Positions 4,873 to 30,511 of a stretch of DNA of 35,006 nucleotides are shown one piece after another. This stretch comes from Candidatus Oscillibacter pullicola. GTDB lineage: Bacteria; Bacillota; Clostridia; Oscillospirales; Oscillospiraceae. A model generated the notes under the pieces. That model saw only the letters and a program-made list of their open reading frames with translations. It had not been told where the DNA came from and made no database searches. The translations under genes and the position numbers were made by a program. The stretch is taken from NCBI GenBank assembly GCA_019118935.1, contig DWXY01000118.1:1-35006 (forward strand), in the 5' to 3' direction. Positions within the stretch are counted from its first letter, which is position 1. Every line of letters starts with the position of its first letter.

Positions 4873-5454
4873 ATGCCGATCAATCTTTCCAAGGGACAAA
4901 AAGTCGATCTGACCAAGGGCAATCCCGGCCTCACCAAGATCATGGTGGGCCTGGGCTGGGACGTGAACGCCTTTGACTCCGGCAGCGCCTTTGACCTGGA
5001 CGCGGCTGCCTTCCTGGTGGGCGCCAACGGCAAGTGCCCCACGGAGCGGGATTTCATCTTCTACGGCAATCTCAAGCACAGCACCGGCGCGGTGGAGCAC
5101 ATGGGCGACAACCTGACCGGCGAGGGTGACGGCGATGACGAGCAGATCCTGGTGGACCTTTCCAAGGTGCCCGCCAACATCGAGCGGATCGCCTTCACCT
5201 GCACCATCTACGACGCGGAGAACCGCCGCCAGAACTTCGGTCAGGTGTCCAACGCCTTCATCCGCATCGTGGACCAGTCCACCGGCACGGAGCTGATCCG
5301 CTATGACCTGGCGGAGGACTTCTCCATCGAGACCGCCATCGTGGTGGGCGAGCTGTACCGCCACAACGGCGAGTGGAAATTCAACGCCATCGGCAGCGGC
5401 TTCCAGGGCGGCCTGGCGGCCCTGTGCGGCCACTACGGCATCGACGCCGAGTGA
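4873..5454 (+). CDS. TerD family protein (copy 1)
   Basis: Starts [40 protein letters not shown] and GDGDDEQI motifs. Confidence 0.93.
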
Positions 5455-5471
5455 TTACAAGGAGGAATATC

Positions 5472-6053
5472 ATGCCCATCAGTTTACAAAAAGGACAGAA
5501 AGTCAGCCTGACCAAGGGCAACCCCGGTCTCACCAAGGTGGTCGTGGGCCTGGGCTGGGACGTGAACAACTTCGACACCGGCGGGGACTTCGACCTGGAC
5601 GCCGCCGCCTTCCTGCTGGGGGAAAACGGCAAGGTCACCTCCTCCGGGGACTTCGTCTTCTACGGCAATCTCAGGCACAGCTCCGGCGCGGTGGAGCATC
5701 TGGGCGACAACCTGACCGGCGAGGGCGCCGGGGATGACGAGCAGATCCGCATCGACCTGACGAAGGTGCCCGACAGTATCCAGCGCATCGCCTTTACGGT
5801 GACGATCTATGAGGCGGAGAGCCGCCGGCAGAACTTCGGCATGGTCAACAACGCCTTCATCCGCATCTTCGACGAGACCAACGGCCAGGAGATGCTCCGC
5901 TATGACCTGGGAGAGGACTTCTCCATCGAGACGGCGGCGGTGTTCGGCGAGCTGTACAAGAACAACGGCGAGTGGAAGTTCAACGCCATCGGCAGCGGCT
6001 ATCAGGGCGGCCTGGCGGCCCTGTGCGCCAACTACGGCGTGGACGTGGAATAA
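5472..6053 (+). CDS. TerD family protein (copy 2)
   Basis: [55 protein letters not shown] Shine-Dalgarno; clear tandem paralogue of copy 1. Confidence 0.93.
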
Positions 6054-6079
6054 GCATCCCGACAGGGAGCGTCGGATTT

Positions 6080-6107
6080 CTCCGGCCGCGCCCGCGGCGC
6101 GGCCGGA
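6080..6107. other. GC-rich inverted repeat between terD copies 2 and 3
   Basis: TCCGGCCGCG...CGCGGCCGGA perfect arms in the spacer, just upstream of the third terD ribosome-binding site. Confidence 0.5.
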
Positions 6108-6130
6108 CATTTTGAAGGAGGAATTTTCCT

Positions 6131-6733
6131 ATGTCTGTGAGTCTGCAAAAGGGCCAGAAGATCAGCCTGACCAAGGGCAACGACGGCCTTTCCAAAGTCA
6201 TCATCGGCCTGGGCTGGGACGAGGCATCCAAGTCCAAGGGCGGTCTGTTCGGCGGCCTGTTCGGGTCCTCCGGCCCCGCCATCGACTGCGACGCCTCCGC
6301 CTTCGTGCTGCGGAACGGCAAGCTGGTGGACAAGAAGGACATCGTCTACTTCGGCAATCTGAAGCACTACACCGGCACCGTCCAGCACATGGGCGACAAC
6401 CTGACCGGCGCCGGCGAGGGCGACGACGAGCAGATCGTGGTGGATCTGGCCCGGGTCCCGGCGGAGTATGACCGCATCGTCCTGGTGGTGAACATCTATC
6501 AGGCCGTGCAGCGCCGCCAGCACTTCGGCATGATCCAGAACGCGTTCATCCGCATCGTGGACGCCCGGAACAACCAGGAGATGTGCCGCTACAACCTCTC
6601 CGAGAACTACGATAACATGACCGCCATGATCTTCGGCGAGGTCTACCGCAACAACGGGGAGTGGAAGTTCAACGCCATCGGCCAGGCCACTACGGATCCC
6701 GGCCTGGTGGAGCTGGCCCGGCGCTATATGTGA
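6131..6733 (+). CDS. TerD family protein (copy 3, divergent with Gly/Phe-rich insertion)
   Basis: MSVSLQKGQKISLTKGNDGLSKVIIGLGWDEASKSKGGLFGGLFGSSGPAIDCDASAFVL; GEGDDEQI retained. Confidence 0.92.
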   Translation: MSVSLQKGQKISLTKGNDGLSKVIIGLGWDEASKSKGGLFGGLFGSSGPAIDCDASAFVLRNGKLVDKKDIVYFGNLKHYTGTVQHMGDNLTGAGEGDDEQIVVDLARVPAEYDRIVLVVNIYQAVQRRQHFGMIQNAFIRIVDARNNQEMCRYNLSENYDNMTAMIFGEVYRNNGEWKFNAIGQATTDPGLVELARRYM

Positions 6734-17410: not shown

Positions 17411-17508
17411 AGTGTAAAAAAATGGCTGTCCGCAACACAGAGTCATTTGTCTTTTTTGCTTTGACACAGCCTTGACACGGCGGCCCGCCCCGCCTCTTCC
17501 CGCGCATA

Positions 17509-17542
17509 GAAAGGCCGCCGCCCGTAAGGGCAGCGGCCTTTC
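17509..17542. terminator. Strong hairpin terminator at the 3' end of the phage module
   Basis: GAAAGGCCGCCGCCC-GTAA-GGGCAGCGGCCTTTC immediately after the last phage gene. Confidence 0.85.
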
Positions 17543-17551
17543 TCCGTTGTA

Positions 17552-18127
17552 CTATCGCTCCGGCGGCACCGCCAGCTGGAAGCTCTCCCAGGTGTGTTCC
17601 GCCGCCTCCACCTGGGCCCAGGTGTACCCGGCGGTCTCGCACTCCGCCCAGGTGAGGTAACGGAAGTAGAACTCCACTCCCAGGTGGCAGGGCAGGATAT
17701 CCAGGATGATCTTTCGGATCTGGTCGAAGCCCTCCGGCTCTCCGGCCACCTCCGGGAAGATCACCCGCAGCTGTCCCCCGCCCATCTCCAGCGCCCGGGC
17801 GCGGATTCCGCAGCCCCGGATCGTCCGGTCGATGGCGGAGGGCGTCAGGCTGTCCCCGTCGATCTGCAGAAGGGCCGCGATGGCGGCTCTCCGGTCCTCT
17901 GCCGTGACGGCGGCGGGGCGGCGGGCAAACAGGGCCTCCCGCCGGGCCAGCCCCTCCCCCTCCGCCGTGGCGGTCAGCGCCTCCCGCTCGATCTCCTCCA
18001 GCCGGCGGCTGACCGTGTCCAGCCCTGTTCCCAGTGCACAGACGGCCGCGCCGCTGGCGGAGTGCTCTTCCAGGTCATAGACTCCCAGCGGTGAGAGCAG
18101 GCTGCGCAGGTGCGCCTCATACATCAC
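17552..18127 (-). CDS. Phage baseplate protein, DUF2313/XkdU (YmfQ-like)
   Basis: 191 aa, last gene after gpJ-like; C-terminal TW repeat; LRSLLSPLGVYDLEEHS... Confidence 0.8.
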   Translation of the reverse strand: MMYEAHLRSLLSPLGVYDLEEHSASGAAVCALGTGLDTVSRRLEEIEREALTATAEGEGLARREALFARRPAAVTAEDRRAAIAALLQIDGDSLTPSAIDRTIRGCGIRARALEMGGGQLRVIFPEVAGEPEGFDQIRKIILDILPCHLGVEFYFRYLTWAECETAGYTWAQVEAAEHTWESFQLAVPPER

Positions 18128-19187
18128 CGTCCGCCTCCATTTCCGTCACCGTCACCTGGCCCAGCATGGGCAGCGTTCCGTCCTCCGCCGCCAGATCGGC
18201 TGCAGGGGCCAGCAGACGGTAGTTCTCCACGCCCTCCACGTGGTACAGCAGGTCTCCCAGCTCCGCCAGCAGCACCGGCCCGCCCAGCCTGCGGCCGCTG
18301 AAAAATCCCGCCAGAGCCTGCTCTGCGGCGGCCTTCGCCGCGGAGAAGTCCGCCCCCTCCCGGACGGCCAGCTCCGCGGACACGTCCACCTCCACCGCCG
18401 CCGGGGCCTTGACCTGCACGTCCACGGCGATCTCCCGCCGCTCCTGCAGGTCCGCCTGGACCGCCGCCAGCAGTGTCCCGTCCGGCAGTCCGGCCGCCGT
18501 GGCGATGTATACATCCACCGTGCCGATCCCCCGGGCCCGGCCCACTGCCCGGGCTGCCGCCACGCCCTCATGGCCCATGGCGGTCTGCTCGTACCAGGCC
18601 GCGTTGGCCCCGTTGGGCAGCCGCTGGTAGCTCTCCAAAATCCGGCTCCGCAGGCTCGCGTCGTCCTCCTGGTCACTGCCGCCGGTGAAGGGCGCCGGAT
18701 TGGTGCATCCGGTGATCCCCACCGGGCAGGCGGTGAGGATCACGATGGTCCCCGCGGCGGCGTTGCCGCTCCGCCCAGGCTCCAAGGCCTCCGCCGGAGC
18801 GTCCACGGACAGCTCTCCCGCCGCCAGTACCGCCTCCGCCGTGGTCTGGAACCGGGTCTCTCCCGCCGTCATGCAGACCGTTCCGGCGGCGATGCTCAGA
18901 TTCGTGGACGGCGCCCGCTCCACAGAAAAGCGGAGCGTTCCCACCGCTTTCGTGGCCGCCGTCCGGGCGATGCCACGCATCTGGGCGTGGTAGTCCAGAT
19001 AGACGCCCTGGGCCGTCTGGGGAAAGCTCTGGTCCAGCACCCACTCGCCCTGGATGCCCAGGGCCTGCAGCTCCGCCGCCGCAGCGTACAGCCGCACGGA
19101 CAGGTCACAGTCCGCCTCCGGCGTGAAGCCCGCCCGCTGGGCAAAGGCCGCCAGCAGCGCCTGGTAGATCTCCTCTGTCGTTTTCAA
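18117..19187 (-). CDS. Baseplate J/gp47-like protein (XkdT-like)
   Basis: 356 aa; NPAPFTGGSDQEDDASLRSRILESYQRLPNGANAAWYEQTAMGHEGVAAARAVGRARGIGTVDVYI is diagnostic of baseplate J proteins. Confidence 0.92.
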   Translation of the reverse strand: MKTTEEIYQALLAAFAQRAGFTPEADCDLSVRLYAAAAELQALGIQGEWVLDQSFPQTAQGVYLDYHAQMRGIARTAATKAVGTLRFSVERAPSTNLSIAAGTVCMTAGETRFQTTAEAVLAAGELSVDAPAEALEPGRSGNAAAGTIVILTACPVGITGCTNPAPFTGGSDQEDDASLRSRILESYQRLPNGANAAWYEQTAMGHEGVAAARAVGRARGIGTVDVYIATAAGLPDGTLLAAVQADLQERREIAVDVQVKAPAAVEVDVSAELAVREGADFSAAKAAAEQALAGFFSGRRLGGPVLLAELGDLLYHVEGVENYRLLAPAADLAAEDGTLPMLGQVTVTEMEADGDV

Positions 19188-19200
19188 ACAACCGCTCCTC

Positions 19201-19572
19201 TCACGATACCTCCACGGTGACGGACAGGGCCTCTCCCCTCCAGGTGAGGCTGGCCGTCACCTGTGCCCGGCCGCCGCCGGATTCCGCCAGAACCACCTGC
19301 TCCACCGTCAGCCCCGGTTCCGCCGCCAGGGCCTCCGCCACGTACTGCTCCGCCGCGCTCTGCCGCCTGGCGGCGGGCAGCTGGCCCAGCTGCCACAGCC
19401 GGCTCCCCAGCTCCGGCAGAAATGGGAAGGTCCCCCGCCGGGCCGTCAGGCGGAAGAGAACCCGCTCCAGCAGGGCCTCCCGGCCCTCGGCCCGCCGCAG
19501 GCCGCCGCTCCCGTCAGGCACATAGTCTCCATTCCGCAGGGAAAGTCCCATCTCCATCCCCCCCCTCAGCAC
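19201..19572 (-). CDS. Baseplate wedge gp25/XkdS-like protein
   Basis: Small protein directly upstream of gpJ-like; LLERVLFRLTARRGTFPFLPELGSRLWQL typical of the gp25/DUF2634-like group. Confidence 0.8.
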   Translation of the reverse strand: MLRGGMEMGLSLRNGDYVPDGSGGLRRAEGREALLERVLFRLTARRGTFPFLPELGSRLWQLGQLPAARRQSAAEQYVAEALAAEPGLTVEQVVLAESGGGRAQVTASLTWRGEALSVTVEVS

Positions 19573-19958
19573 TCGCAGGGCGCATAGGGCTCCCCGTTCA
19601 CCGTCAGGCTGCCCTGGATGCGCACTTCGCCCCGCAGCTCGATCTCACCGCCGCTGCGCAGGTACACGCTGTTTCCGCCGGGGGTGAAGAGATAGACTTC
19701 CCCCGGCCCCATGCCTTCCGGGATCAAAGCCTGCTGCTGTCCCGCTACACACTGCTCTTCCCCGCCGGGGCCGCCCTTGATGACCAGCACCGCGGCGCCG
19801 CTCTCCGGCATCCATACATAGCCGCCGGGGCCGTACACCGGAAGCGCCCGCACCTCCCCCCGGGTGACCACGCCCACGCTGTCTCCAGCGATGGTGGTCA
19901 TGCCCAGGTCCGCGTCCGCCGTGGGCGCCGGCGCCTTTATCTGTCTCGATATCCACAT
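19566..19958 (-). CDS. Baseplate spike / gpV- or XkdR-like protein
   Basis: 130 aa; position between the XkdQ- and gp25-like genes; beta-rich ending GGEIELRGEVRIQGSLTVNGEPYAPCEC. Confidence 0.65.
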   Translation of the reverse strand: MWISRQIKAPAPTADADLGMTTIAGDSVGVVTRGEVRALPVYGPGGYVWMPESGAAVLVIKGGPGGEEQCVAGQQQALIPEGMGPGEVYLFTPGGNSVYLRSGGEIELRGEVRIQGSLTVNGEPYAPCEC

Positions 19959-19959
19959 C

Positions 19960-20911
19960 TCATATCCGCTCCCTCAGTGTCAATGTGCAGACCTCTCCCG
20001 CCTCCGGGGAGGCCGTGTTTTCCGCCTCGGCCACCCGGTACTCGCCGGAGAGGCCCATGGCCTCCAGCTCCAGCCGGACCATGTCCCCGGGAAACGCCGG
20101 GAAACACCCGGCCAGCCCCAGCTCAATGGTCAGTTCCTCTTCCCGGGACCGCCGGATCTGATACTCCCCGGTGTACCGCATGGCAGCCCAGGTGCTCTGC
20201 CCCGGGGTGTAGACCACCCGGCGGCACTGGCCGCCCCGGTCCAGCATGTCCCGGTTCTGCACGCTGTAGGACACATTCCGGGTCTTGTCGATGACCAGCA
20301 CCTCCGTCAGCACACCGTAGTGGTCCTCCCGCAGGGTGCAGGAGAGGATCGGGCTGGTCCCGTCGATGACGATCCGCCGCCCGTCATCCCGCTCCGGCGC
20401 CGCCACCAGCAGCCCGTCCCGCCGGAAGCGGGGCGAAAAGCCCCCATAGGTCCGGCAGAAGCCCTCCAGCGCCTTCCACTGACTGGTGCCGGCGGCCACG
20501 GTGTAAACAGAGTCCGCCGACACCGGCGCGATCTCCGCGCTGGAAATGCCGTAGGGCGCCGCATGGCACCGGACAATCTCCGCCAGCGTGGCTCCCTGAT
20601 ACGTCACCGGCCGAGACTCATTGTCCAGCAGCCGGGCGGCGTATCCCCGGCCGCAGATGGTCACCGTCAGTCCCGCTGCCGTCAGCTCCACCTCGTACTC
20701 GTCCACGATGCCCCGCAGCAGTACCCCGCCGTTCTCGTCCAGCGCCAGGAAACCCGCCGCCAGATGCAGCGGCTCCGCCATGGTCCTGTCGTACACGCAG
20801 GTGACCCCATAGCTGTCGCAGGGCACGCCGCCGGTGTAGATGATATTCCAGCGCAGCAGCACCGGCAGCTCAAAAATCCGGTGGTCGCTGGTGATGATCC
20901 GTCCTCTCATG
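19960..20911 (-). CDS. Tail hub/late control protein D-like (XkdQ-like)
   Basis: MRGRIITSDHRIFELPVLLRWNIIYTGGVPCDSYGVTC... about 316 aa, follows the LysM protein as in PBSX; start overlaps the LysM stop. Confidence 0.75.
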
Positions 20912-21485
20912 GTATCCGCACCTGGTCCCCCGGGTAGATCAAGTTGGGGTTCTTGATCTGGGGATTGGCTGCGATCAGGGCGGTCAGCGCCACACCGTAC
21001 CGCCCGGCGATCCCCCACAGGTTGTCTCCTTTCTGCACTGTATGGACGGCAGTCCAGCCTCCGGCAGGGATCTCCGGGTCCGTTGCGCCGTCCGGCTCCC
21101 CTTCTGCGGGCACTTCCACCAGCCCGCCGGATGCCGTGCTGTCCTCCCAGAAGGAAAAGCGGTACCGCACATAGTCCGGCAGCGGCTCCTCCATCAGCTC
21201 CAGGGTCACGAAATAGGCGCTGACCGTCCGCCAAACCGGGTGCACCAGCAGCCCCGGCCCGGTCTGGTCAAAGACCTCCGCCAGCGTCTGGAACTCCTCG
21301 TAGGCCCGCTCCCCCGCAAAGGTCCCCTCTCCCCGGAAAATGCGGTACGTCCGCCCCAGATCCTGCAGATACCAGCCCCCCAGGGGTATCTTGTGGGCTG
21401 CTATCTGCCGCCGGTACTCCACCGCACAGGTCTCCGGATTGTGGGGCCAGGTGTAGTCCTTATAGCGCATGGGTTTCAGCAGCAA
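20907..21485 (-). CDS. Phage LysM-domain baseplate/tail protein (XkdP-like)
   Basis: 192 aa with C-terminal LysM: HTVQKGDNLWGIAGRYGVALTALIAANPQIKNPNLIYPGDQVRIP; TTG start per ORF track. Confidence 0.88.
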   Translation of the reverse strand: MLLKPMRYKDYTWPHNPETCAVEYRRQIAAHKIPLGGWYLQDLGRTYRIFRGEGTFAGERAYEEFQTLAEVFDQTGPGLLVHPVWRTVSAYFVTLELMEEPLPDYVRYRFSFWEDSTASGGLVEVPAEGEPDGATDPEIPAGGWTAVHTVQKGDNLWGIAGRYGVALTALIAANPQIKNPNLIYPGDQVRIP

Positions 21486-21497
21486 GTCCTCACCTCC

Positions 21498-22052
21498 TCA
21501 GTCATACAGCGGGAATCCGCCGTCATACCGGCGGGCGTCCCGCTGCACCGTGCGGGACAGCGCCCTGGCGCTCTCCATCATTCCTGCCGCGCCGGAGTTC
21601 CAGCGTCCCGGCAGAAGATAAAGCGTCTCCTCCGCCTCGTCCCCGCCGGGGATTGCTGCCCCGCCTCCGCCGGACAGGTGGCCATCCTCCCTCATGGGAT
21701 TCCCCCTCCCGGCAGAATTGGCGGTCTCTCCGGCGCCAGCCGGGCCGAAGGCGGCCGTATACTGCCGTTCTGCACGCTTCCGGGCCAGGGCCGGCCGCAG
21801 CGTCTCCCCCGCCGAAGCGGGGACGGCCTGCCTGTCGGCCCCGGCGGCCGCAAAGCTCTTCCGGCGGGCCTCCCGTCCGCCGGTCCCAGCCGCCGTCCGC
21901 CCCGTCTCCCATGGCGCAGGCGCTGCCGGAGACATTCTCTCCGGTGCCGGAGAGGCGGCTGCGGCCTCCGGCTCTTCCATGCTTCCGCCGCCCAGCATCA
22001 GCCGGGCCAGGGCCGTCCGCTGCCGCAGCAGCATCTCCCGGATGTACTCCAT
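21498..22052 (-). CDS. Hypothetical 184 aa low-complexity protein in the tape-measure position
   Basis: Ala/Gly/Pro/Arg-rich ORF between tail chaperone-like and LysM genes; tightly packed in the operon. Confidence 0.6.
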   Translation of the reverse strand: MEYIREMLLRQRTALARLMLGGGSMEEPEAAAASPAPERMSPAAPAPWETGRTAAGTGGREARRKSFAAAGADRQAVPASAGETLRPALARKRAERQYTAAFGPAGAGETANSAGRGNPMREDGHLSGGGGAAIPGGDEAEETLYLLPGRWNSGAAGMMESARALSRTVQRDARRYDGGFPLYD

Positions 22053-22053
22053 C

Positions 22054-22365
22054 TCAGCCCCCCTTCAGCGCCTGGAACCGGGTCTGGTCAAAGTCCCGGT
22101 TCACTGCCGCCGGGGCGGGAGAGGGCTCCTCCCCCGCCAGGCGGCGCAGCAGCGCCTCCATCTCCCCGGCGGTCAGCCGGGCCAGCACCGCCGCGCCGTC
22201 ATCAAACACCGGCGCCCCCTGGTACAGGCAGCTCTCTGCCAGCACCTGGGCGTTGCACAGCAGGGCACGTTCCAGGGGCTCCTCCGCCAGCTCCCGGGTC
22301 CCCCGCCAGATCTCCAGCAGCCGCCAGGCCGTGGGCGGCCGCAGCTCGTCCAACTCCTCCATCAT
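22054..22365 (-). CDS. Tail assembly chaperone-like protein (XkdN-like position)
   Basis: About 103 aa acidic protein MMEELDELRPPTAWRLLEIWRGTRELAEEP..., start overlaps the tube gene stop by 4 nt. Confidence 0.55.
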   Translation of the reverse strand: MMEELDELRPPTAWRLLEIWRGTRELAEEPLERALLCNAQVLAESCLYQGAPVFDDGAAVLARLTAGEMEALLRRLAGEEPSPAPAAVNRDFDQTRFQALKGG

Positions 22366-22751
22366 GCCGTGGTCTCGATCCGCTTGGAGGCCACCACGGT
22401 CACCTTCTCGGCCACCATGGCGTTCAGCTGGCCCTCTTCCTGGATGGCGCTCCACTGGCAGCCGCTGTAAATGACCTTCCGGTCCGGCTTGCAAATCACC
22501 AGGGAGAAGTCCCGCAGGTCATAGAAATTGATGCCGTCCGTCACCGCGTCCTCTGTGGCGTACAGCCGCGTCAGCTCCAGGGTGTACTTCCGCTGGCCCT
22601 CGATGGTGGCTACCGGCTCGCTCTCGCCGAAGGCCTCCACGCTCTGGCTGGATTTGCTGGCCCGGGCGGTGTAGCCCTGCACCACCGCGATCTTTCTCCC
22701 GTCCAGCTCCAGATAGATGTCCGCGCTGGTGGGAAATCCCGTTGCTTCCAT
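22362..22751 (-). CDS. Phage tail tube protein (XkdM-like)
   Basis: 129 aa immediately after sheath; SADIYLELDGRKIAVVQGYTARASKSSQSVEAFGESEPVATIEGQRKYTLELTRLY. Confidence 0.85.
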   Translation of the reverse strand: MEATGFPTSADIYLELDGRKIAVVQGYTARASKSSQSVEAFGESEPVATIEGQRKYTLELTRLYATEDAVTDGINFYDLRDFSLVICKPDRKVIYSGCQWSAIQEEGQLNAMVAEKVTVVASKRIETTA

Positions 22752-22763
22752 ACCGTCTCCTCC

Positions 22764-23831
22764 TTACACCGTGATGTGGACCGTCAGATAGATCTGATTC
22801 AGCCCGTGGGCCACCGCGAAGCTGAACTCCACCAGACACACGGTGGGGTCATCCTCCGAGGCCGTCACCGTCACCTCGCCGTAGCTGTCGATGATCTCCT
22901 CTGTCACCTTCTTCTCCAGCTCCACGATCACCTGGGAGCGGATGGCGCTGCGGCTCTGGGCCGTGTTTTTGGCCCGGGCGAACTTGCTGCGCAGGGCCTG
23001 CCGCACCGCCGGGATCACATCGTCCACGATCAGGATGGTGGTCAGCTCCCGCCAGGTGGTGTCCGCCGCGCCGCCGGTGGTGGTCCGGGTGGTGATGCCC
23101 CGCACCGGGGACACTGTGCCCGCCGCGCTCTCCAGGGGCGTCACGCCGCCCCGCACCAGCAGGTCGATGTCATTGTCGCTGTATACGGTGCTCAGGCCCC
23201 CCAGCCCCCGGATCTCCGCCCCGTTGAGCGGCACCGCCGGGTCCCGTCCGGAGGCGATGACCCCCGCCAGGGCCGCCGCAGCGAACACGCCGGGCAGCGT
23301 CTTCCCGCCGCTGTCCAGGGCGTCGGGGCCCACCAGCACCATCCGCTCGCTGTTCAGCGCCGCCGCGTGGGTCACCAGCTCCGCCGCCGACTCACCGTCG
23401 CCGCCCACCACGGCGATCCGCTCCATCCGGGCGGCGGAGGCATCCTCCACCGCGGTCCGCAGCGCCTGCTGCACCGTCTCCTCGGCGCTGTCGCACACCA
23501 GGATCCGGGCCTCCTTCCCGCCCAGGGCCGCGAAGGCGTCCTGGTAGTCCTTCACCGCGCCGGCCTCCGCCACCCGGACCGCTGCCACAGTGGAGGCGCC
23601 GTTGGCAAACAGCAGCCGCAGAATGGTGCTCATCCCCGGCGCATCCGCCGCGTCCTCGCCGAAGGCCGCCGCGCCCGCGGCATAGCCCGTCAGGGTCACC
23701 ACCTCTCCGGCAGTGCCCTTCACCGCCTTGGCCGCCACGCCGATGACCTTGGCGGCCCGTCCGGCGGATACCACCGTTGACGCGTCATAGCTGGAGTACA
23801 CCCCCGGCCGCTCATGCATTGTCTCGCTCAA
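22764..23831 (-). CDS. Phage tail sheath protein (XkdK-like)
   Basis: Starts near (M/L)SETMHERPGVYSSYDASTVVS; contains GGVTPLESAAGTVSPVRGITTRTTTGGAADTTWRELTTILIVDDV; a TTG start overlapping the previous stop is plausible (alternative ATG at 23819). Confidence 0.92.
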   Translation of the reverse strand: MSETMHERPGVYSSYDASTVVSAGRAAKVIGVAAKAVKGTAGEVVTLTGYAAGAAAFGEDAADAPGMSTILRLLFANGASTVAAVRVAEAGAVKDYQDAFAALGGKEARILVCDSAEETVQQALRTAVEDASAARMERIAVVGGDGESAAELVTHAAALNSERMVLVGPDALDSGGKTLPGVFAAAALAGVIASGRDPAVPLNGAEIRGLGGLSTVYSDNDIDLLVRGGVTPLESAAGTVSPVRGITTRTTTGGAADTTWRELTTILIVDDVIPAVRQALRSKFARAKNTAQSRSAIRSQVIVELEKKVTEEIIDSYGEVTVTASEDDPTVCLVEFSFAVAHGLNQIYLTVHITV

Positions 23832-24322
23832 GTGGTCACTGCTCCCTTCAATCGAAAGTCCAAAAATACCGTGTCGCCCTCTTCCGCCCGGGCCAGGAAA
23901 TACGCCCGGCACCGGAGCCTTCCCCGCCGCAGGAACAGCTCTGTCTCCCGCTCCCAGGTCAGGGCTTCCCAGTTCAGCTCGCCGGGGCGGATGCCGGCAG
24001 GCAGCCTTCCCAGCAGCACCTCCGCCGCCGTCTCACAGCCCTGTTCGCAGTCCGCGGCCCGCTGTCCCCGGATCTCTACGGAGATCACCGCCTCCAGCTG
24101 CTTTCCATACAGCTCCCGCGGTGCGCCGGTCCCGGCGTCGAAGACCTCGCCCAGATAATTGCAGAATCCCACGGTCCGGCTCTCTGCGGTCTCCACAGCC
24201 ACTGCCGCCACCGGGCAGCCATACCGCCTGGCCCGCTGGTCCGGATAGGCGTCCAGCGCCGCCACCCCCTCCGCTGCCAGGGCGGAGACCACCGCATCCC
24301 GGATCTGACTCAATTCCCGCAT
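23828..24322 (-). CDS. Tail terminator / minor tail completion protein
   Basis: 164 aa between the head-tail connector and sheath genes; MRELSQIRDAVVSALAAEGVAALDAYPDQRARRYG... Confidence 0.65.
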   Translation of the reverse strand: MRELSQIRDAVVSALAAEGVAALDAYPDQRARRYGCPVAAVAVETAESRTVGFCNYLGEVFDAGTGAPRELYGKQLEAVISVEIRGQRAADCEQGCETAAEVLLGRLPAGIRPGELNWEALTWERETELFLRRGRLRCRAYFLARAEEGDTVFLDFRLKGAVTT

Positions 24323-24639
24323 TCCGCCGCCTCCCGCTCCTGTTCCAGCGCCGCCCAGTAGTGGGACAGCGCGTTACCGATGTAGTAGGGCCTGCAGCTG
24401 CGCACCCGGAAGCGCCTGCCCTCCCAGGCCAGGGATTCCCCCTCCTCCAGGGCCGTCTGCCCCAGATACAGCCACAGCCGCCCATCCACCCAGCCGATGG
24501 AGGTAACGTCACTTCGGGCCCGTTCATCCCGCTCCGCCACCGGCTGCAAAAACGCCCGCGCGGCCCGTTCTCCGTCCGCCGTGTCCACGGTGACGTCCTG
24601 TCCATACCGCTCCAGGACCTGCCGCACCCAGTCCGTCAT
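24310..24639 (-). CDS. Head closure / neck protein (XkdH-like position)
   Basis: MTDWVRQVLERYGQDVTVDTADGERAARAFLQPV...RRFRVRSCRPYYIGNALSHYWAAL. Confidence 0.65.
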   Translation of the reverse strand: MTDWVRQVLERYGQDVTVDTADGERAARAFLQPVAERDERARSDVTSIGWVDGRLWLYLGQTALEEGESLAWEGRRFRVRSCRPYYIGNALSHYWAALEQEREAAECGN

Positions 24640-25010
24640 CCTCTCACTCCCCGAAAGCAAAAATCCTCCGGCGCCGCAAAGGGCGCCATCAGCCGTTCCG
24701 CCGTGCGCTGCAGGCTCTCTGCCAAAGCGCAGCTCTCCGCCGCGCTGCGGATCCGCACGGACACGCTGCCCGCTGTGAAGCCGGACACCCCGTCGCCGCC
24801 CCGTGCCGCCGCCAAGTCCGCGGCGGCGGTGAAGGCCGCGGCGCAGGGAAACGCCTCGCCGCAGTCCTCCGCTGTCACGCCCGGCCGCAGCCGCTTGTTC
24901 CACCGCTGCTCCGCCGCCTGACAAAGCAGTTCCAGCAGAGCCTCTTCCGCCTCCCCGGCCCCGGAGAGTTCCCGGGCCAGGGTCAGGACCGTCTCCTGCA
25001 GCGCGCTCAT
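24636..25010 (-). CDS. Head-tail connector protein (gp6/YqbG-like)
   Basis: 124 aa following the major capsid gene with a start/stop overlap; phage gene order. Confidence 0.6.
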   Translation of the reverse strand: MSALQETVLTLARELSGAGEAEEALLELLCQAAEQRWNKRLRPGVTAEDCGEAFPCAAAFTAAADLAAARGGDGVSGFTAGSVSVRIRSAAESCALAESLQRTAERLMAPFAAPEDFCFRGVRG

Positions 25011-26038
25011 ACCACCAGGACCTTGGAGGCCTCCGTGAACAGCTTGGCAAAGCCGGAGATGGAGGTGATGGCCGCCCGCTCCAGCTGGCGGTCGATGAGC
25101 TTGTCATACTCCACCGTGATCTCGCTGCCGCAGATCTGCTCCAGGGCGTAGTTCCTGTCCAGGCCGATCAGGATCCCCGCCGGCATGGCAGAGGTCCGCA
25201 GCAGCTTTGCTCCCAGGGGCGTGGTCAATGTGCCGGTGCCCTGGAAGTTCAGCCCCGTCAGGGGATTCTGGAACTCGTCCAGCTTCAGCATGGCCAGCAT
25301 CACATCGCCGCCCACCAGCATGGTGTTCATGGTGTAGGGGTCGAACTGGCTCCAGAACTCCAGCAGGGCATCATAGGTCAGCGTCCCCTTGGTGCCGGTG
25401 ATAGGCTTCGTGCCGATGGTGTACTGCTGGGCGGCATTCTGATTGCCGTCGCCGTTGCGCAGCACGGCGATGGCGTCCTCCAGGTGCATCCGGCCGATGT
25501 AGGCGCCGATCTGCCGCAGCGTCACGGAAAACAGGTCCAGCCGCTGGAACCGGATTGCCTCGTAGGAGGCCACCAGCATCCGGCCCCGCTTGTGGAGGTG
25601 CACCAGGTTCTCCTGGGTGCGGACGGTGGTCTCCGGGATCCGGGCGCCCTCCTCCACCCGGCGGAGCTTTTTGTCCTCCTCGCTGGGCACGGAGGCGATG
25701 GACCGGTAGTCCATGCCGTCGAACTTGGTCACCGTGGCGGTGATGGCCGGCAGGATGCTCTCCTCCTCCATCCCCTGCCGCACCACCCGGGAGACGAACT
25801 CCGGGAACAACACGGCGGAGTCGGAGGTGTGGAAGAACTTCTCCACCATGTCGCTGCCCGCGCCCTTCACATGAATGTCAAAGCGCTTCAGCTGCCGCTG
25901 GAAGGCGTCCAGGCCCTCCAGGGGCGTGTCCCGGTAGTGTTCGCTGGGGTCCAGCTCCTCCAGCGTCTGGGAAAAGCTGCGGCCGCTGCGGCCGTACATC
26001 CCCTTTTCCAGCTTGATGTTCTCAAAATGATAGGCCAT
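25007..26038 (-). CDS. Phage major capsid protein (HK97-like/XkdG-like)
   Basis: MAYHFENIKLEKGMYGRSGRSFSQTLEELDPSEHY...; SAVLFPEFVSRVVRQGMEEESILPAITATVTKFDGMDYRSIA; size and position. Confidence 0.87.
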   Translation of the reverse strand: MAYHFENIKLEKGMYGRSGRSFSQTLEELDPSEHYRDTPLEGLDAFQRQLKRFDIHVKGAGSDMVEKFFHTSDSAVLFPEFVSRVVRQGMEEESILPAITATVTKFDGMDYRSIASVPSEEDKKLRRVEEGARIPETTVRTQENLVHLHKRGRMLVASYEAIRFQRLDLFSVTLRQIGAYIGRMHLEDAIAVLRNGDGNQNAAQQYTIGTKPITGTKGTLTYDALLEFWSQFDPYTMNTMLVGGDVMLAMLKLDEFQNPLTGLNFQGTGTLTTPLGAKLLRTSAMPAGILIGLDRNYALEQICGSEITVEYDKLIDRQLERAAITSISGFAKLFTEASKVLVV

Positions 26039-26052
26039 GTGTGCTCTCCTCC

Positions 26053-26412
26053 TCACAGTACAAAGGTCACGGTCTTGGCGGTGGTGTCCACATCCACCAC
26101 CAGATAGGTGCTGCCGTCCGCGTCCGCCTGGACGCCGCCCTCGCCGTCGGCGCTGAGGCCGCTCCAGCCCAGGGCCGGCGCCGCGCCCGCCTCCGGCACG
26201 GTGTACCCGGCGGTGACCATGCCCCCCAGGGCCACGGCGCAGGCATCGCCGCCCCGGCCGACAGACAGCACCATGCCGCAGAAATCGTCTCCCGCATCGC
26301 AGGCGGACACCGTTCCATTGGCGCTGATCTTCACCAGCTCCCCCTCCGCCAGATCGTCACAGGCGAAGGTGGCGGCCCACTGGCCGATCCCCTCATAAGA
26401 AAGTTTCATCAT
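26053..26412 (-). CDS. Capsid decoration/stabilisation-like protein
   Basis: 119 aa beta-rich small protein immediately upstream of the capsid gene. Confidence 0.6.
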   Translation of the reverse strand: MMKLSYEGIGQWAATFACDDLAEGELVKISANGTVSACDAGDDFCGMVLSVGRGGDACAVALGGMVTAGYTVPEAGAAPALGWSGLSADGEGGVQADADGSTYLVVDVDTTAKTVTFVL

Positions 26413-26424
26413 ACGTCCTCCCTT

Positions 26425-27306
26425 TCAAATCAGAAATTCCGTCTCGTCCTCTGTCCTGGCCGTGCCCCGGCTCCGCAGCTGGGGCGCGGGCGGGAACCGG
26501 CGGGCCGCCTGGGCCCCGTAGACCCGCTTCAGCTCCAGCAGCTCCGGCTCCTCCAGATGCTCCGCCGCCTTGGCCAGGGCGCCGCCGTCCACGCTGTCGT
26601 CCGCCAGCATGGCAAGGCGCGTCACCTCACGGCGCAGCTCCCGCAGGTATTTCCGCCCCAGCTCCGCCTGGGCACGCAGCTGTGCCGTCCTCTCGTCCTC
26701 GGGGCCATACCGTTTCAGGACCCCCGCCTTCCGCTGGGCCGGCACCGCCACGAAGGACCACTCGTAGGCATCGGTGGGCTCCCGCAGCTCCAGGTAGCAC
26801 AGCTGCTCCCCGTACCGCTGCCCCGGCACGTGCTGACAAGCGCCGCCCTCCGCGCCGCAGATGGAGCACGCCCGCCGGGCCACGCTGCACCCCACGCTGA
26901 CCTCCCGCTTGATGCCTCCCTCGATCTCCGCGATCAGATTCGCGTTCTTCTCCGTCCGCAGGAGATACGCCCAGGCCTTCAGCCAGCAGTAGCCGTCCCC
27001 CGCCGCGGTCACCTGGGCGCCCTCCCGCACCACCTCGGTCCGGTAGATGCGGGCGGTCTGCCCCTCCGCCGTCCACTGGTGGTCAAAGATGCCGCTCTTT
27101 CCCACGAACAGGTCCCCCAGCGTGTTGAGCGCCGCCGCATCGAACCGCTCCCAGTCCCGGTCCACCTCGTTGTCGCACAGCCGCAGGGAAAAGGCGTACA
27201 CCTCCTCCGCCCGCAGGGGCGACTTGGCAAATCGGTTGATCTCCGCCAGCTCCGCCTCCGCCGGCACGCCTGCCGTTGCCTCCAGATTTTTTTCGATTTC
27301 CTTCAT
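26425..27306 (-). CDS. XkdF-like phage prohead protease / scaffold protein
   Basis: FDHQWT ... GIKREVSVGC ... YEWSFVAVPAQRKAGV are prohead-protease-type motifs; C-terminal helical scaffold-like region; internal CSICG...CQH insertion. Confidence 0.75.
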   Translation of the reverse strand: MKEIEKNLEATAGVPAEAELAEINRFAKSPLRAEEVYAFSLRLCDNEVDRDWERFDAAALNTLGDLFVGKSGIFDHQWTAEGQTARIYRTEVVREGAQVTAAGDGYCWLKAWAYLLRTEKNANLIAEIEGGIKREVSVGCSVARRACSICGAEGGACQHVPGQRYGEQLCYLELREPTDAYEWSFVAVPAQRKAGVLKRYGPEDERTAQLRAQAELGRKYLRELRREVTRLAMLADDSVDGGALAKAAEHLEEPELLELKRVYGAQAARRFPPAPQLRSRGTARTEDETEFLI

Positions 27307-27520
27307 ACCTCTCTCCTTCCATGGACCGCGGCCCGCTCCGCCGCGCCGTTTCCGACCCGCAGCTTCCGCGCCTGCGTTCCCCACCGCGCCTTCGGCGTGG
27401 CGGGGACCCCGGATTTCATTTTGATCGGGCAGGCGGAGCCCGCCCGACCCAGGGGCCGGCCGCTTCGCGTCCAAACGCTTGGACGCCGCTCCCGCGGTGG
27501 GCGCGCCTTCTCCCCTTGTC

Positions 27521-28678
27521 TCAGGCCTTCCGCGCTGCCTCCGCCGCATCGTTCTCGATCCGCAGCTTCCTGGCCTGCTCCAGGTAGAGGGCCGCGCGGG
27601 CGTCCTCCACCTCGTCCTGAAGGTTGATGTCCTCCCACAGGACTTCAAAGCCGCAGGTATACCCGTGCATCCGCAGCCACAGCCGGCAGATGCGCTCCAC
27701 CACCGGCGTGAGGGTCCGGCGGATGGCGGTGATCTCCGTGGTGAGCATATCCGCCTGCTGGGAGCTCATCCGCTCCGTGGAGCTCCAGCTGAGCCCCAGC
27801 ATGAAGGGCGGGATGCCCGTCTTGGCCACCACCTGCTCCAAAATCTGCCGCACAGGCACCTCGCTGTCCAGGACGGGCGCGTCGGCGCCGATGACCCGGA
27901 TGTCCACATCTCCCACGGCCACAAAATCCCGCACGCTGCCGCTCTTGGTGTCCTGCATGGCCCGGGACCACTCTCCTGCCAGCATCCGGCTCCGCTCCTC
28001 CGCCTGGCCGTTTCCGCCGTCCCGGCAGGTGACGGCGAAGCGCAGGCTGCCGCACCGCTCCCAGTTGACCCCGATGGTGTGATAGATCTTCATCAGGATA
28101 TCCGTCAAAAACGGCAGCCCCCGCAGCAGGGACACGCCATAGGGGCTGTCCGCCTCCGGATTCAGCGGCGTGAACAGCAGCAGGTCCTGACAGGGCAGCG
28201 GCCCCATCCGTCCCCGCTCATCCGGGCCGCAGATAACGAATGCCAGGGGATGGTCTCCCTCCTGAATCTCAATATCCTCCACCCGGCCCCACAGCACGGC
28301 CGCAATCTCCCGGTTTCCCGCTGCGGGCACGATCTCCCCGATGGCCCGTCCGCAAGTCAGCAGAGAGTCCAGGTAGCCCTCCAGAAAGGCATTGACCCCA
28401 TACTGCCCCCGCCCGGCCGGGACCGTGCGGAGGAATTCCCCCAGCGCCCGCTCCGCCGCCGGGTCGGAACAGGCCGCCGTCACGCCGCCCACCATCCGGA
28501 TCAGTTTGTAGATGGCGGCGTCCACCACCGGCACCGCCTCCCGCACCGCCCGGTACAGCCGGATCTCCCCGCTGCGCATGGGCACATACTGCCCCAGCAG
28601 TCCAAAGGGGTGGTGTCCCGCCTCCCGCAGCTGGACCAGCGCTGCCGCCGGTGCCGTCTGTTTCCGAAACCATTTCAA
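27521..28678 (-). CDS. Phage portal protein
   Basis: 385 aa; RLYRAVREAVPVVDAAIYKLIRMVGG..., GIPPFMLGLSWSSTERMSSQQADMLTTEITAIRRTLTPVVERICRLWL portal-like. Confidence 0.88.
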   Translation of the reverse strand: MKWFRKQTAPAAALVQLREAGHHPFGLLGQYVPMRSGEIRLYRAVREAVPVVDAAIYKLIRMVGGVTAACSDPAAERALGEFLRTVPAGRGQYGVNAFLEGYLDSLLTCGRAIGEIVPAAGNREIAAVLWGRVEDIEIQEGDHPLAFVICGPDERGRMGPLPCQDLLLFTPLNPEADSPYGVSLLRGLPFLTDILMKIYHTIGVNWERCGSLRFAVTCRDGGNGQAEERSRMLAGEWSRAMQDTKSGSVRDFVAVGDVDIRVIGADAPVLDSEVPVRQILEQVVAKTGIPPFMLGLSWSSTERMSSQQADMLTTEITAIRRTLTPVVERICRLWLRMHGYTCGFEVLWEDINLQDEVEDARAALYLEQARKLRIENDAAEAARKA

Positions 28679-28714
28679 CTTCCAAACCTCCCGTCCATTC
28701 CTTGCCGCGGTCCC

Positions 28715-29950
28715 TCAGGCCCGCCGCTCCACCCAGGTGGCCGCAAAGCCATCCTGCTCTCCCGCCGCCAGATCCATGGCGAAGTACCGCAGATCGTCCA
28801 TGGCGTGGTCCTGCTCCTTTTTCGGAGCGTCCCGCCGCCCCTTGTCATCCCAGCAGTACGTCTCCATCTCCCGCAGGCAGTCGGCGCAGGCGCCGCAGAT
28901 CACGATCCGCCGCCGCTTCAGCAGGTCCGCCGTCACCCGGATGCCGTCGGCCACGTCGTTGTCCGCCCGGACCACCCGGAATCCCTCCCGCCGCAGCGCC
29001 TCGATGAAGCTGGCCGCCGACGGGTCCACGATCACTCTTGTGATCTCCCTGTCCTCCGCCAGCTCCCGCAGGTCCCGGACATACTCCGCGTCTGTCTTCT
29101 GCCGTCCCTCCCGGCGGGAGTCGTAGTAGAACTCCCCCACCCGGTACCAGATCTCTCCCTGCCGGCCCCACAGGCCGAAGGAGGCCGGGTTGGCGGTGCC
29201 GTAATCCACGGAGATCCGCCACTCCTGAAAATCTCCCTCCGGCACAGGCACGCTGTCCCGGTCCCGGTCGAAGAAGTCGTACACCCGCCCCTGGGCGGCC
29301 GTCCACTCCCCCAGCACGAACCGCCGGTAAAAAACGCCGGAGTAGGCGCTGCGGTAGCGGGCCCGGATCCGGGGCGTCAGGGCAGGGTTGTCCTCCATGG
29401 TGAAATGGAGGTACAGGGCCCGCCGCTCCCTTGCCTTCAAGATCCACTCCCGGTAAAACCAGTGCTGCGGGTTCTCCGGATTGCAGTTGAACCACAGCCG
29501 GCTCCCCGCCACGCTGCACCGGGCGACGGCCTGCTCCACAAAGCTCCGTGGCATCAGGGCCGCCTCGTCCAGCAGCACCCCCGCCAGGGTGCTCCCCTGG
29601 ATCAGCGCCGCGCTGGACTCGTCCCGCCCGCCGAAGAGCAGGAAGCGGTTCTCATGGCCCCCCAGCCGCACGGTCAGCAGGTTCTCCGACCGCCGCTCCC
29701 GGCAGTCGAAGCCCAGCCGCCGCAGATAGGGCACCAGCTCCGCCAGCAGGTTCCGCCGCAGGGAGGTGATGGTCTTGCCGCACAGTCCCAGCTGCCGTCC
29801 GTCAAACCGGGCCATCGCCCAGAGGAAGAAGGAGAGCCCCATGGAGAACGTCTTGCCGCTGCGGACGGCCCCGTCGCAGATGATGGCCTCCCAGTTCCCG
29901 GGGCGGCACCACCAGGTCAGCACCTTCCGCTGCTTGGGAGAAAACCGCAT
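28715..29950 (-). CDS. Phage terminase large subunit
   Basis: ATPase Walker A-like CDGAVRSGKTFSMG, ALIQGSTLAGVLLDEAALMP Walker B, nuclease-domain SVDYGTANPASFGLWG and VIVDPSAASFIEALR. Confidence 0.93.
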   Translation of the reverse strand: MRFSPKQRKVLTWWCRPGNWEAIICDGAVRSGKTFSMGLSFFLWAMARFDGRQLGLCGKTITSLRRNLLAELVPYLRRLGFDCRERRSENLLTVRLGGHENRFLLFGGRDESSAALIQGSTLAGVLLDEAALMPRSFVEQAVARCSVAGSRLWFNCNPENPQHWFYREWILKARERRALYLHFTMEDNPALTPRIRARYRSAYSGVFYRRFVLGEWTAAQGRVYDFFDRDRDSVPVPEGDFQEWRISVDYGTANPASFGLWGRQGEIWYRVGEFYYDSRREGRQKTDAEYVRDLRELAEDREITRVIVDPSAASFIEALRREGFRVVRADNDVADGIRVTADLLKRRRIVICGACADCLREMETYCWDDKGRRDAPKKEQDHAMDDLRYFAMDLAAGEQDGFAATWVERRA

Positions 29951-29954
29951 GATC

Positions 29955-30419
29955 TCAGCCGTCGTCCCACGCTCCTTCCTCCCCGGCGGCGTCCGCCAGC
30001 ACCCGGTACAGCTCCCCGGCACCCTCCGCCTTTTCCTCGCTCAGCAGTCCGCAAAGAGCCTCCAGGGCCCGGATGCGGTCGATAAGCTTCACTTCCACGC
30101 CGCCCTTGTCCGTCACCTTCAGCTCCGCCACGGCGGACAGGTCCAGCGTCTCCAAATCCGCCTCTGCGCTGTGCAGGGCCAGACGCGCCGCGTCATTCAC
30201 CCGGCCGAAGGCCAGCTGGGCCAGACGCCGCACCGCGTCCTCCCGGCGCACCTGCCCGGCCGCTGCCTTCCGCATCCGCTCCAGCCGCCTGCGCACCATC
30301 TTCGCCTCCAGCATGGCGTACCCGTCGGCGCACCCGGCAAGGACCGCCGCCTGTTCCGGGTCCATGCACTGGAGATACTTCCGGCAGAACGCCTCGGCCC
30401 GCCCGTTGGATTTTTCCAC
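29955..30419 (-). CDS. Phage terminase small subunit
   Basis: 154 aa with terminase small-type N-terminus (AEAFCRKYLQCMDPEQAAVLAGCADGYAMLEAKMVRRRLERM), directly upstream of the large subunit. Confidence 0.85.
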   Translation of the reverse strand: MEKSNGRAEAFCRKYLQCMDPEQAAVLAGCADGYAMLEAKMVRRRLERMRKAAAGQVRREDAVRRLAQLAFGRVNDAARLALHSAEADLETLDLSAVAELKVTDKGGVEVKLIDRIRALEALCGLLSEEKAEGAGELYRVLADAAGEEGAWDDG

Positions 30420-30511
30420 AGATGCGCACCTCCTCTCTCAGTCGTTCGATAGTAGCCTCCTTCCGGCCGAAAGTTGCACGCCGCCGGGCATCTCTTTCAA
30501 TTTTTTTGCAG

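Follow-up and report, generated by a model that had tools for sequence, protein, structure and literature searches.

Here we describe a 19-gene phage-like module on a 35,006-nucleotide stretch of DNA (hereafter the window) from Candidatus Oscillibacter pullicola (Oscillospirales; Oscillospiraceae; contig DWXY01000118.1, positions 1 to 35,006). We propose that it probably encodes the structural proteins of a phage-like particle that packages DNA and that the Oscillospirales have domesticated and pass on vertically; a gene transfer agent (GTA) whose contractile tail is very short is the likeliest identity. Many gut bacteria of this order have these head and short contractile-tail genes intact, inherited with the host and at one site per genome, and in relatives fibre genes lie beside genes for the surface coat, from which it follows that such bacteria probably produce virus-like particles to deliver their DNA to relatives. 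A preliminary description of the window had read the module as a retained, domesticated function rather than a prophage in decay, and our results support this; gene transfer itself we infer from the sequence.

The module occupies the minus strand from terS, the gene for the small terminase subunit (starting at 30419), to a DUF2313/gp48-like gene (ending at 17552), and comprises 19 open genes with zero frameshifts. The intact one-strand run first recognized there is thus confirmed, with Pfam and PHROGs support for TerS, TerL (large terminase), portal, major capsid protein (MCP), sheath, LysM, hub, gp25-like, gpJ-like and gp48-like proteins; the protease, connector, tube and spike identities come from position and PHROG matches. 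Two details of the preliminary description stand only in part. Overlaps between neighbouring genes exist, but at just 6 of the 18 junctions and by 4–13 nt rather than at many by about 4 nt, most others being gaps of 1–36 nt and one a gap of 214 nt. The strong terminator is a GC hairpin of 16 bp whose U tail is short; a terminator consensus scan does not list it. Integrase, replication and lysis genes are all absent from the fully annotated site in the window, as had been noted. The source genome is a 2.65-Mb draft, 91% complete and in 161 contigs, and the nearest named relatives by capsid identity are Oscillibacter valericigenes An411 (97%) and Candidatus O. excrementavium (96%). In the direction of reading, the features of the module are as follows (minus strand marked −; ORF, open reading frame; MFE, minimum free energy).

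30473–30490 (−): operator-like dyad 5′ of terS, TGCCCGGCGGCGTGCAAC; consensus GTTGCACG-N4-CGTGCAAC
29955–30419 (−): terS, small terminase, 154 aa; Pfam Terminase_2 4e-8; N-terminal helical domain retained
28715–29950 (−): terL, large terminase, 411 aa; Pfam Terminase_6N; ATPase and nuclease residues retained
27521–28678 (−): portal protein, 385 aa; PHROG 30703, 3e-189
26425–27306 (−): putative prohead protease/scaffold, 293 aa; PHROG 16951 (unknown function) 1e-119, position; conserved
26053–26412 (−): decoration/virion structural protein, 119 aa; PHROG 4588, 1e-32
25007–26038 (−): MCP, 343 aa; Pfam Phage_capsid_4 4e-15, PHROG 3922 1e-117
24636–25010 (−): head–tail connector A, 124 aa; position; orthologues in 109 of 120 loci
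24310–24612 (−): head–tail connector B, about 100 aa, start codon uncertain; weak PHROG 939; 85 orthologues
23828–24322 (−): connector/tail-terminator-like protein, 164 aa; PHROG 25177, 3e-50
22764–23819 (−): tail sheath, 351 aa; Pfam Phage_sheath_1 and _1C
22362–22751 (−): tail tube, 129 aa; PHROG 27038 4e-64, 985 weak; 129–130 aa in nearly all relatives
22054–22365 (−): tail-assembly chaperone (XkdN-like), 103 aa; position
21498–22052 (−): mini tape-measure candidate (XkdO slot), 184 aa; N-terminal helix and C-terminal RDARRYDGG motif, middle variable and disordered
20907–21485 (−): LysM tail/baseplate protein (XkdP-like), 192 aa; Pfam LysM 5e-15, DNA_circ_N 6e-9
19960–20910 (−): baseplate hub (XkdQ-like), 316 aa; PHROG 177, 1e-36
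19566–19958 (−): spike-position protein, 130 aa; PHROG 25991 1e-44, unknown function
19201–19572 (−): gp25-like baseplate wedge, 123 aa; Pfam GPW_gp25 3e-4 (below curated cut-off), PHROG 43
18117–19187 (−): baseplate J (gpJ/XkdT-like), 356 aa; Pfam Baseplate_J 6e-55
17552–18127 (−): gp48/DUF2313-like (XkdU-like), 191 aa, last gene; Pfam Phage_Mu_Gp48 5e-5 (below curated cut-off), PHROG 521
17508–17543 (−): terminator-like 16-bp GC hairpin 3′ of the last gene; MFE −50.2 kcal/mol over an 87-nt stretch, z = −4.3

A locus private to this strain, a ratio of non-synonymous to synonymous substitutions (dN/dS) near 1, or a full prophage at the same site in relatives had been named at the outset as signs against a retained function, and we find none of these. 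Of 300 genomes sampled from the family, 107, in 49 of the 106 genera, have a capsid homologue, one each, and the same 19-gene order and spacing recur in about 40 genera, so the module is more than a chance arrangement. Congeners have the same module at the site in place of a prophage (one, G254, as a deletion variant), and those Oscillibacter loci that are long enough to show it mostly have the terS-side flank in common while the gp48 side varies. A clustered comparison of the other loci recovers the same 19 genes with varying, non-recurrent flanks. The genes are under purifying selection, with dN/dS between close species of 0.27–0.30 for the whole module (0.28 overall), 0.06–0.15 for MCP (about 0.10), about 0.2 for TerL and about 0.17 for the sheath, and only 9 of about 1,890 gene copies across 120 loci (less than 0.5%) are disrupted.

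The module is also inherited vertically. Across 27 genomes, distances between module proteins follow those between RpoB sequences (Spearman 0.75 and Pearson 0.88 for the concatenated proteins), the correlation of each of 16 module genes exceeds 300 of 300 permutations, and the module and RpoB trees have 16 of 24 splits in common. As a control, ordinary PF05065 phage capsids are patchy (12 of 30 such genomes, in 0–3 copies) and have no detectable mutual similarity. The capsid is single copy in other families of the order too (43 of 295 order-level genomes), and a class-level sample contained it in 7 of 341 genomes, five of them within the order and two being distant matches beyond it. It occurs in cultured, sequenced species, for example Oscillibacter valericigenes Sjm18-20 and O. 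ruminantium GH1.

No complete phage carrying the module was found in IMG/VR or INPHARED. Matches in IMG/VR (L074–L144) are contigs of 4–23 kb, and five unannotated human-faecal scaffolds match in INPHARED, of which the two examined resemble bacterial chromosome around the module. Viral databases list as many short ‘viral’ contigs a module that is apparently host-inherited. The two examined scaffolds, MT835508.1 (L225) and MT835769.1 (L226), are GenBank ‘Bacteriophage sp.’ entries from Mexico, and one holds the ribosomal-protein operon; they probably come from a study of DNase-treated virus-like particles (PMC8361208).

That fibre and lysis genes are lacking, as first described, is true of the window; some relatives have lysis genes after gp48, and most encode fibres elsewhere in the genome. 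An ORF whose N terminus reads N-K-T-x-x-L-x-L-N-x-W-x-G-x-D-K-P follows gp48 in families f23 and f26, and in the window's family this fibre N-terminal domain is encoded away from the module, in 1–8 copies per genome. Of 47 genomes that have the module (in G254, a remnant of it), 39 encode fibres, versus 1 of 31 genomes that lack it (Fisher's exact test, 4e-13, which ignores the relatedness of the genomes). The same contrast is seen within genera: in g81, one genome (G080) has neither module nor fibre and two (G154, G253) have both, and in g43, G131 has neither and G042 both.

Detached fibre genes usually converge with a long ORF whose end resembles a surface protein and whose 3′ terminus is 65–100 nt away (about 21 of 31 loci, counted manually), and SLH domains (PF00395), found in surface-layer (S-layer) proteins, were confirmed in these neighbours in four genera (G128, G155, G118 and G269). 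G269 has seven fibre copies 9–50 kb from its capsid gene, and G128 has six, mostly with a period of about 4.1 kb and 26–52 kb from the capsid gene. In the stretch of G128 examined (L376, G128:C1:562000-581900), S-layer and fibre genes alternate in a tandem array, and both proteins have a conserved N terminus and a hypervariable C terminus. Over 26 pairs, C-terminal similarity between fibres correlates weakly with that between the adjoining S-layer proteins (rho 0.19, reached in 1 of 2,000 permutations and in 12 of 2,000 within genera). The two fibre pairs that match best between genera (G128–G118) also have strongly matching S-layers. This co-variation of the variable ends suggests lock-and-key targeting.

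The dyad GTTGCACG-N4-CGTGCAAC lies mostly 45–75 nt 5′ of terS, and its variants keep the symmetry; the window copy has one mismatch. It scores at least 10 of 12 in 45 of 102 terS upstream regions versus 6 of 510 shuffles, and is found again 5′ of the detached fibre genes of relatives, where 11 of 20 score at least 12 of 16 versus 1% of shuffles. Some further matches lie within coding sequence or close to spurious ORFs like those that overlie tRNA genes, and were excluded from the putative regulon. The element may act as an operator in the DNA or as a hairpin in the RNA.

The tape-measure slot, between the chaperone and LysM genes, holds more than the mere low-complexity ORF of 184 aa for which it was first taken. 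Its orthologues at this position have an N-terminal helix in common and, at the C terminus, a motif that does not vary, and at 70 of 97 loci the slot has an ORF of 90–294 aa ending in R-D-A-R-R-Y-D. In Oscillibacter, the protein has a conserved M-D/E-Y-I helix at its N terminus, a variable middle and an invariant S-R-x-x-x-x-D-A-R-R-Y-D-G-G at its C terminus. AlphaFold models the 184-aa protein mostly at low confidence, with helices at residues 3–19, 85–102 and 155–176. Judged by its place and conservation, it may be a mini tape measure. In at least 14 other genera, the adjoining tail-chaperone gene is in two parts that meet at a conserved A7G slip site, with the slippery run AAAAAAAG at the junction, near the start of the tube–LysM slot (L041, L042, L045, L051, L052, L055, L060, L061, L065, L067, L068, L070, L207 and L179). 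As is known of tail chaperones, it is likely to undergo programmed frameshifting in these relatives; in the window's genus, it is one shorter ORF without the slippery run.

As for packaging and release, the GAVRSGKT, LLDEA and VDYG/VDPS/DHAMDD positions of TerL are at least 97% conserved among 107 orthologues. At 80 of 123 loci, no N-terminal TerS domain was detected, and often there is no space for it; the count is approximate because detection used a home-made profile, and a fold search with the TerS model gave no significant match. Where there is room after gp48 (84 loci), 22 loci have an endolysin-like ORF (M15 or CHAP) and 34 have some lysis- or fibre-accessory-like ORF. In O. valericigenes Sjm18-20, the module precedes a coiled-coil XhlA-like ORF, a holin-like ORF and a CHAP endolysin. 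The window lineage has no lysis gene after gp48, nor is there one elsewhere in the window.

Tails differ across the order. Most f23 loci retain LysM, hub, spike, gp25, gpJ and gp48 and have no recognizable sheath (L269–L274, L276, L278, L279 and L282); these variants lose sheath and tube, not the head, and the contractile tail has probably been lost stepwise in f23. Within the window's family, only head, connectors and a LysM-type protein were recognized in Faecousia-like genomes. Head-only variants seen in this family (L216–L224, L048 and L066, including Candidatus Faecousia) have the LysM-type protein in several cases. Sheaths are present in f26 and f7, so a contractile tail may be the ancestral state.

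If the module encodes a GTA, a host regulator acting at the dyad 5′ of terS would switch on the cluster as well as, in those relatives that have them, the detached fibre genes. TerS and TerL would then load host chromosomal DNA at random, with little or no site choice, and the small protein in the tape-measure slot would determine the short tail. Lysis genes, which about a quarter of relatives have next to the cluster and others may have elsewhere, would release the particles, and fibres encoded beside S-layer genes would direct them to cells displaying the matching S-layer. A wider proposal, which we put forward tentatively and at somewhat less than even confidence, is that of an order-wide contractile-tail GTA whose fibres, in detached cassettes, are each paired with the gene for the S-layer that they recognize (some genomes having arrays of 6–7 fibre genes), so that a built-in lock and key would steer DNA exchange to cells with the same coat; other lineages would have shed the tail, losing sheath and tube and keeping the baseplate, or retaining the head only.

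Because sequence cannot tell delivery from killing, the main rival is a killer like PBSX, a defective prophage of Bacillus subtilis (xkd genes): a domesticated head and contractile-tail particle that would package host DNA and kill competitors, its fibres avoiding the producer's own S-layer. PBSX has terminase and head genes, a contractile tail and the order xkdM-N-O-P-Q...T-U, with which the order of the module (terS-...-sheath-tube-chaperone-x-LysM-hub-...-gpJ-gp48) agrees; furthermore, lysis cassettes adjoin the module in relatives, and the linkage of fibre and S-layer genes could signal immunity as well as targeting. PBSX, however, has a long tape measure and a fibre gene inside its cluster, whereas the module has the 184-aa ORF in the xkdO slot and no fibre gene in the window. 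The very short slot protein and the loss of the TerS N-terminal domain speak against a killer, as does the strong constraint on TerL catalytic residues and capsid, although PBSX retains these too. The variable ends of fibre and S-layer proteins are most alike together, which binding explains better than avoidance, and on balance we consider a killer unlikely. A capsid-based delivery system or tailocin-like weapon without DNA transfer, its head carrying protein or being vestigial, seems to us decidedly improbable: sheath and baseplate are complete, and the lone G254 genome retains the baseplate after losing the portal-to-sheath stretch, but few genes of the module are as conserved as those of the head, and other lineages give up sheath and tube instead. 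Diffocin-type contractile tailocins, in which fibre specificity is tied to S-layer proteins, have no heads; the module differs in its complete, conserved head and terminase, and a headless tailocin was rejected on these grounds.

Ordinary prophages or cryptic prophage remnants, repeatedly acquired, would account for phage-derived genes and for a patchy distribution (107 of 300), but hardly for the vertical signal, single copy, uniform ends and near absence of broken genes, nor for the lack of integrase and replication genes and of a complete phage in IMG/VR and INPHARED, which leaves this origin very improbable. A decaying prophage was rejected, given the few disrupted copies and dN/dS far below 1, and the integrase, replication and own lysis genes expected of an active prophage are absent from the site in the window, where host genes form the flanks. 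Least credible of all is a capsid-forming satellite or helper-dependent element borrowing other phages for mobility. A compact cluster with head genes and without replication genes recalls such elements, but the module has a full tail and baseplate of its own, no integrase, a fixed locus within the genus and a host-like phylogeny; a satellite was rejected.

Several observations weigh against a vertically inherited GTA. A phage-size genome might fit into the head, whose capacity the sequence does not reveal. The window TerS retains its N-terminal helical domain (predicted local distance difference test above 90 for the domain), and no fibre gene was found in the window's own 91%-complete, 161-contig draft; in other draft genomes, fibre loci are often at contig ends. 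Of 12 RpoB splits with good support, the module tree contradicts 3, which may reflect some horizontal movement, and about two-thirds of the sampled family genomes are without the module, which means that losses are common. Finally, the congener G254 has, at the same site, a deletion from the portal into the start of the sheath gene, with the baseplate retained. This deletion (L304, G254:C3:42000-58000) is either a biological loss or an assembly error.

The host genes flanking the module in the window encode a cyclase, an OYE-type oxidoreductase, a PH-like protein, a histidine kinase, a response regulator and CstA, names read off the sequence and backed by searches for only some. Further away, three consecutive TerD-like ORFs followed by a P-type ATPase (4873–6733) resemble, by eye, a ter (tellurium/stress) operon.

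Of the properties by which GTAs are classed as viriforms, the module shows tailed-phage structural genes including TerL, portal and MCP, vertical inheritance, purifying selection and no integrase or replication genes; random packaging of host DNA, at which the TerS N-terminal domain missing from 80 of 123 loci hints only indirectly, transfer to recipient cells and a capsid too small for the gene cluster itself would be expected of it. GTAs of the RcGTA type have a non-contractile tail, and we know of no S-layer-linked fibre genes in RcGTA or other type I GTAs. As far as the available part of the 2022 GTA classification describes them (PMC9662315), RcGTA and the alphaproteobacterial type I GTAs are like the module in their vertically inherited structural cluster and lack of replication genes, and have the small capsid and short tail predicted for it, but belong to another host phylum. 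In the same part of that source, BaGTA (Bartonella) and BhGTA/VSH-1 (Brachyspira) are also host-inherited and make one particle from genes at more than one place, but their tails are reported as non-contractile or absent (PMC9662315). As far as annotation shows, their structural genes are unrelated to those of the module. A contractile tail is described in that part of the classification for none of the GTAs covered (PMC9662315), and in the open-access literature we found no description of a contractile GTA in Firmicutes or of fibre/S-layer pairing.

Compared by description, not by sequence, FpGTA of Faecalibacterium prausnitzii (PMC12946183) shares with the module an Oscillospirales host, a terS-terL-portal-capsid operon and the lack of replication genes; its TerS is reported without an obvious DNA-binding domain, as at 80 of 123 module loci, and its fibre and lysis genes are reported in a separate second operon, but it is described as podovirus-like and confined to Faecalibacterium among the genera tested, whereas the window module has sheath, tube and a full baseplate. 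GTA-like packaging of Oscillospiraceae (Onthomonas) DNA has also been reported in human faecal viromes, with the gene cluster left unnamed (PMC12946183), and the module is a concrete candidate for it. The order displays stages of tail reduction side by side and, if our proposal is true, the fibre/S-layer cassettes would be a directly testable answer to how a GTA picks its recipients.

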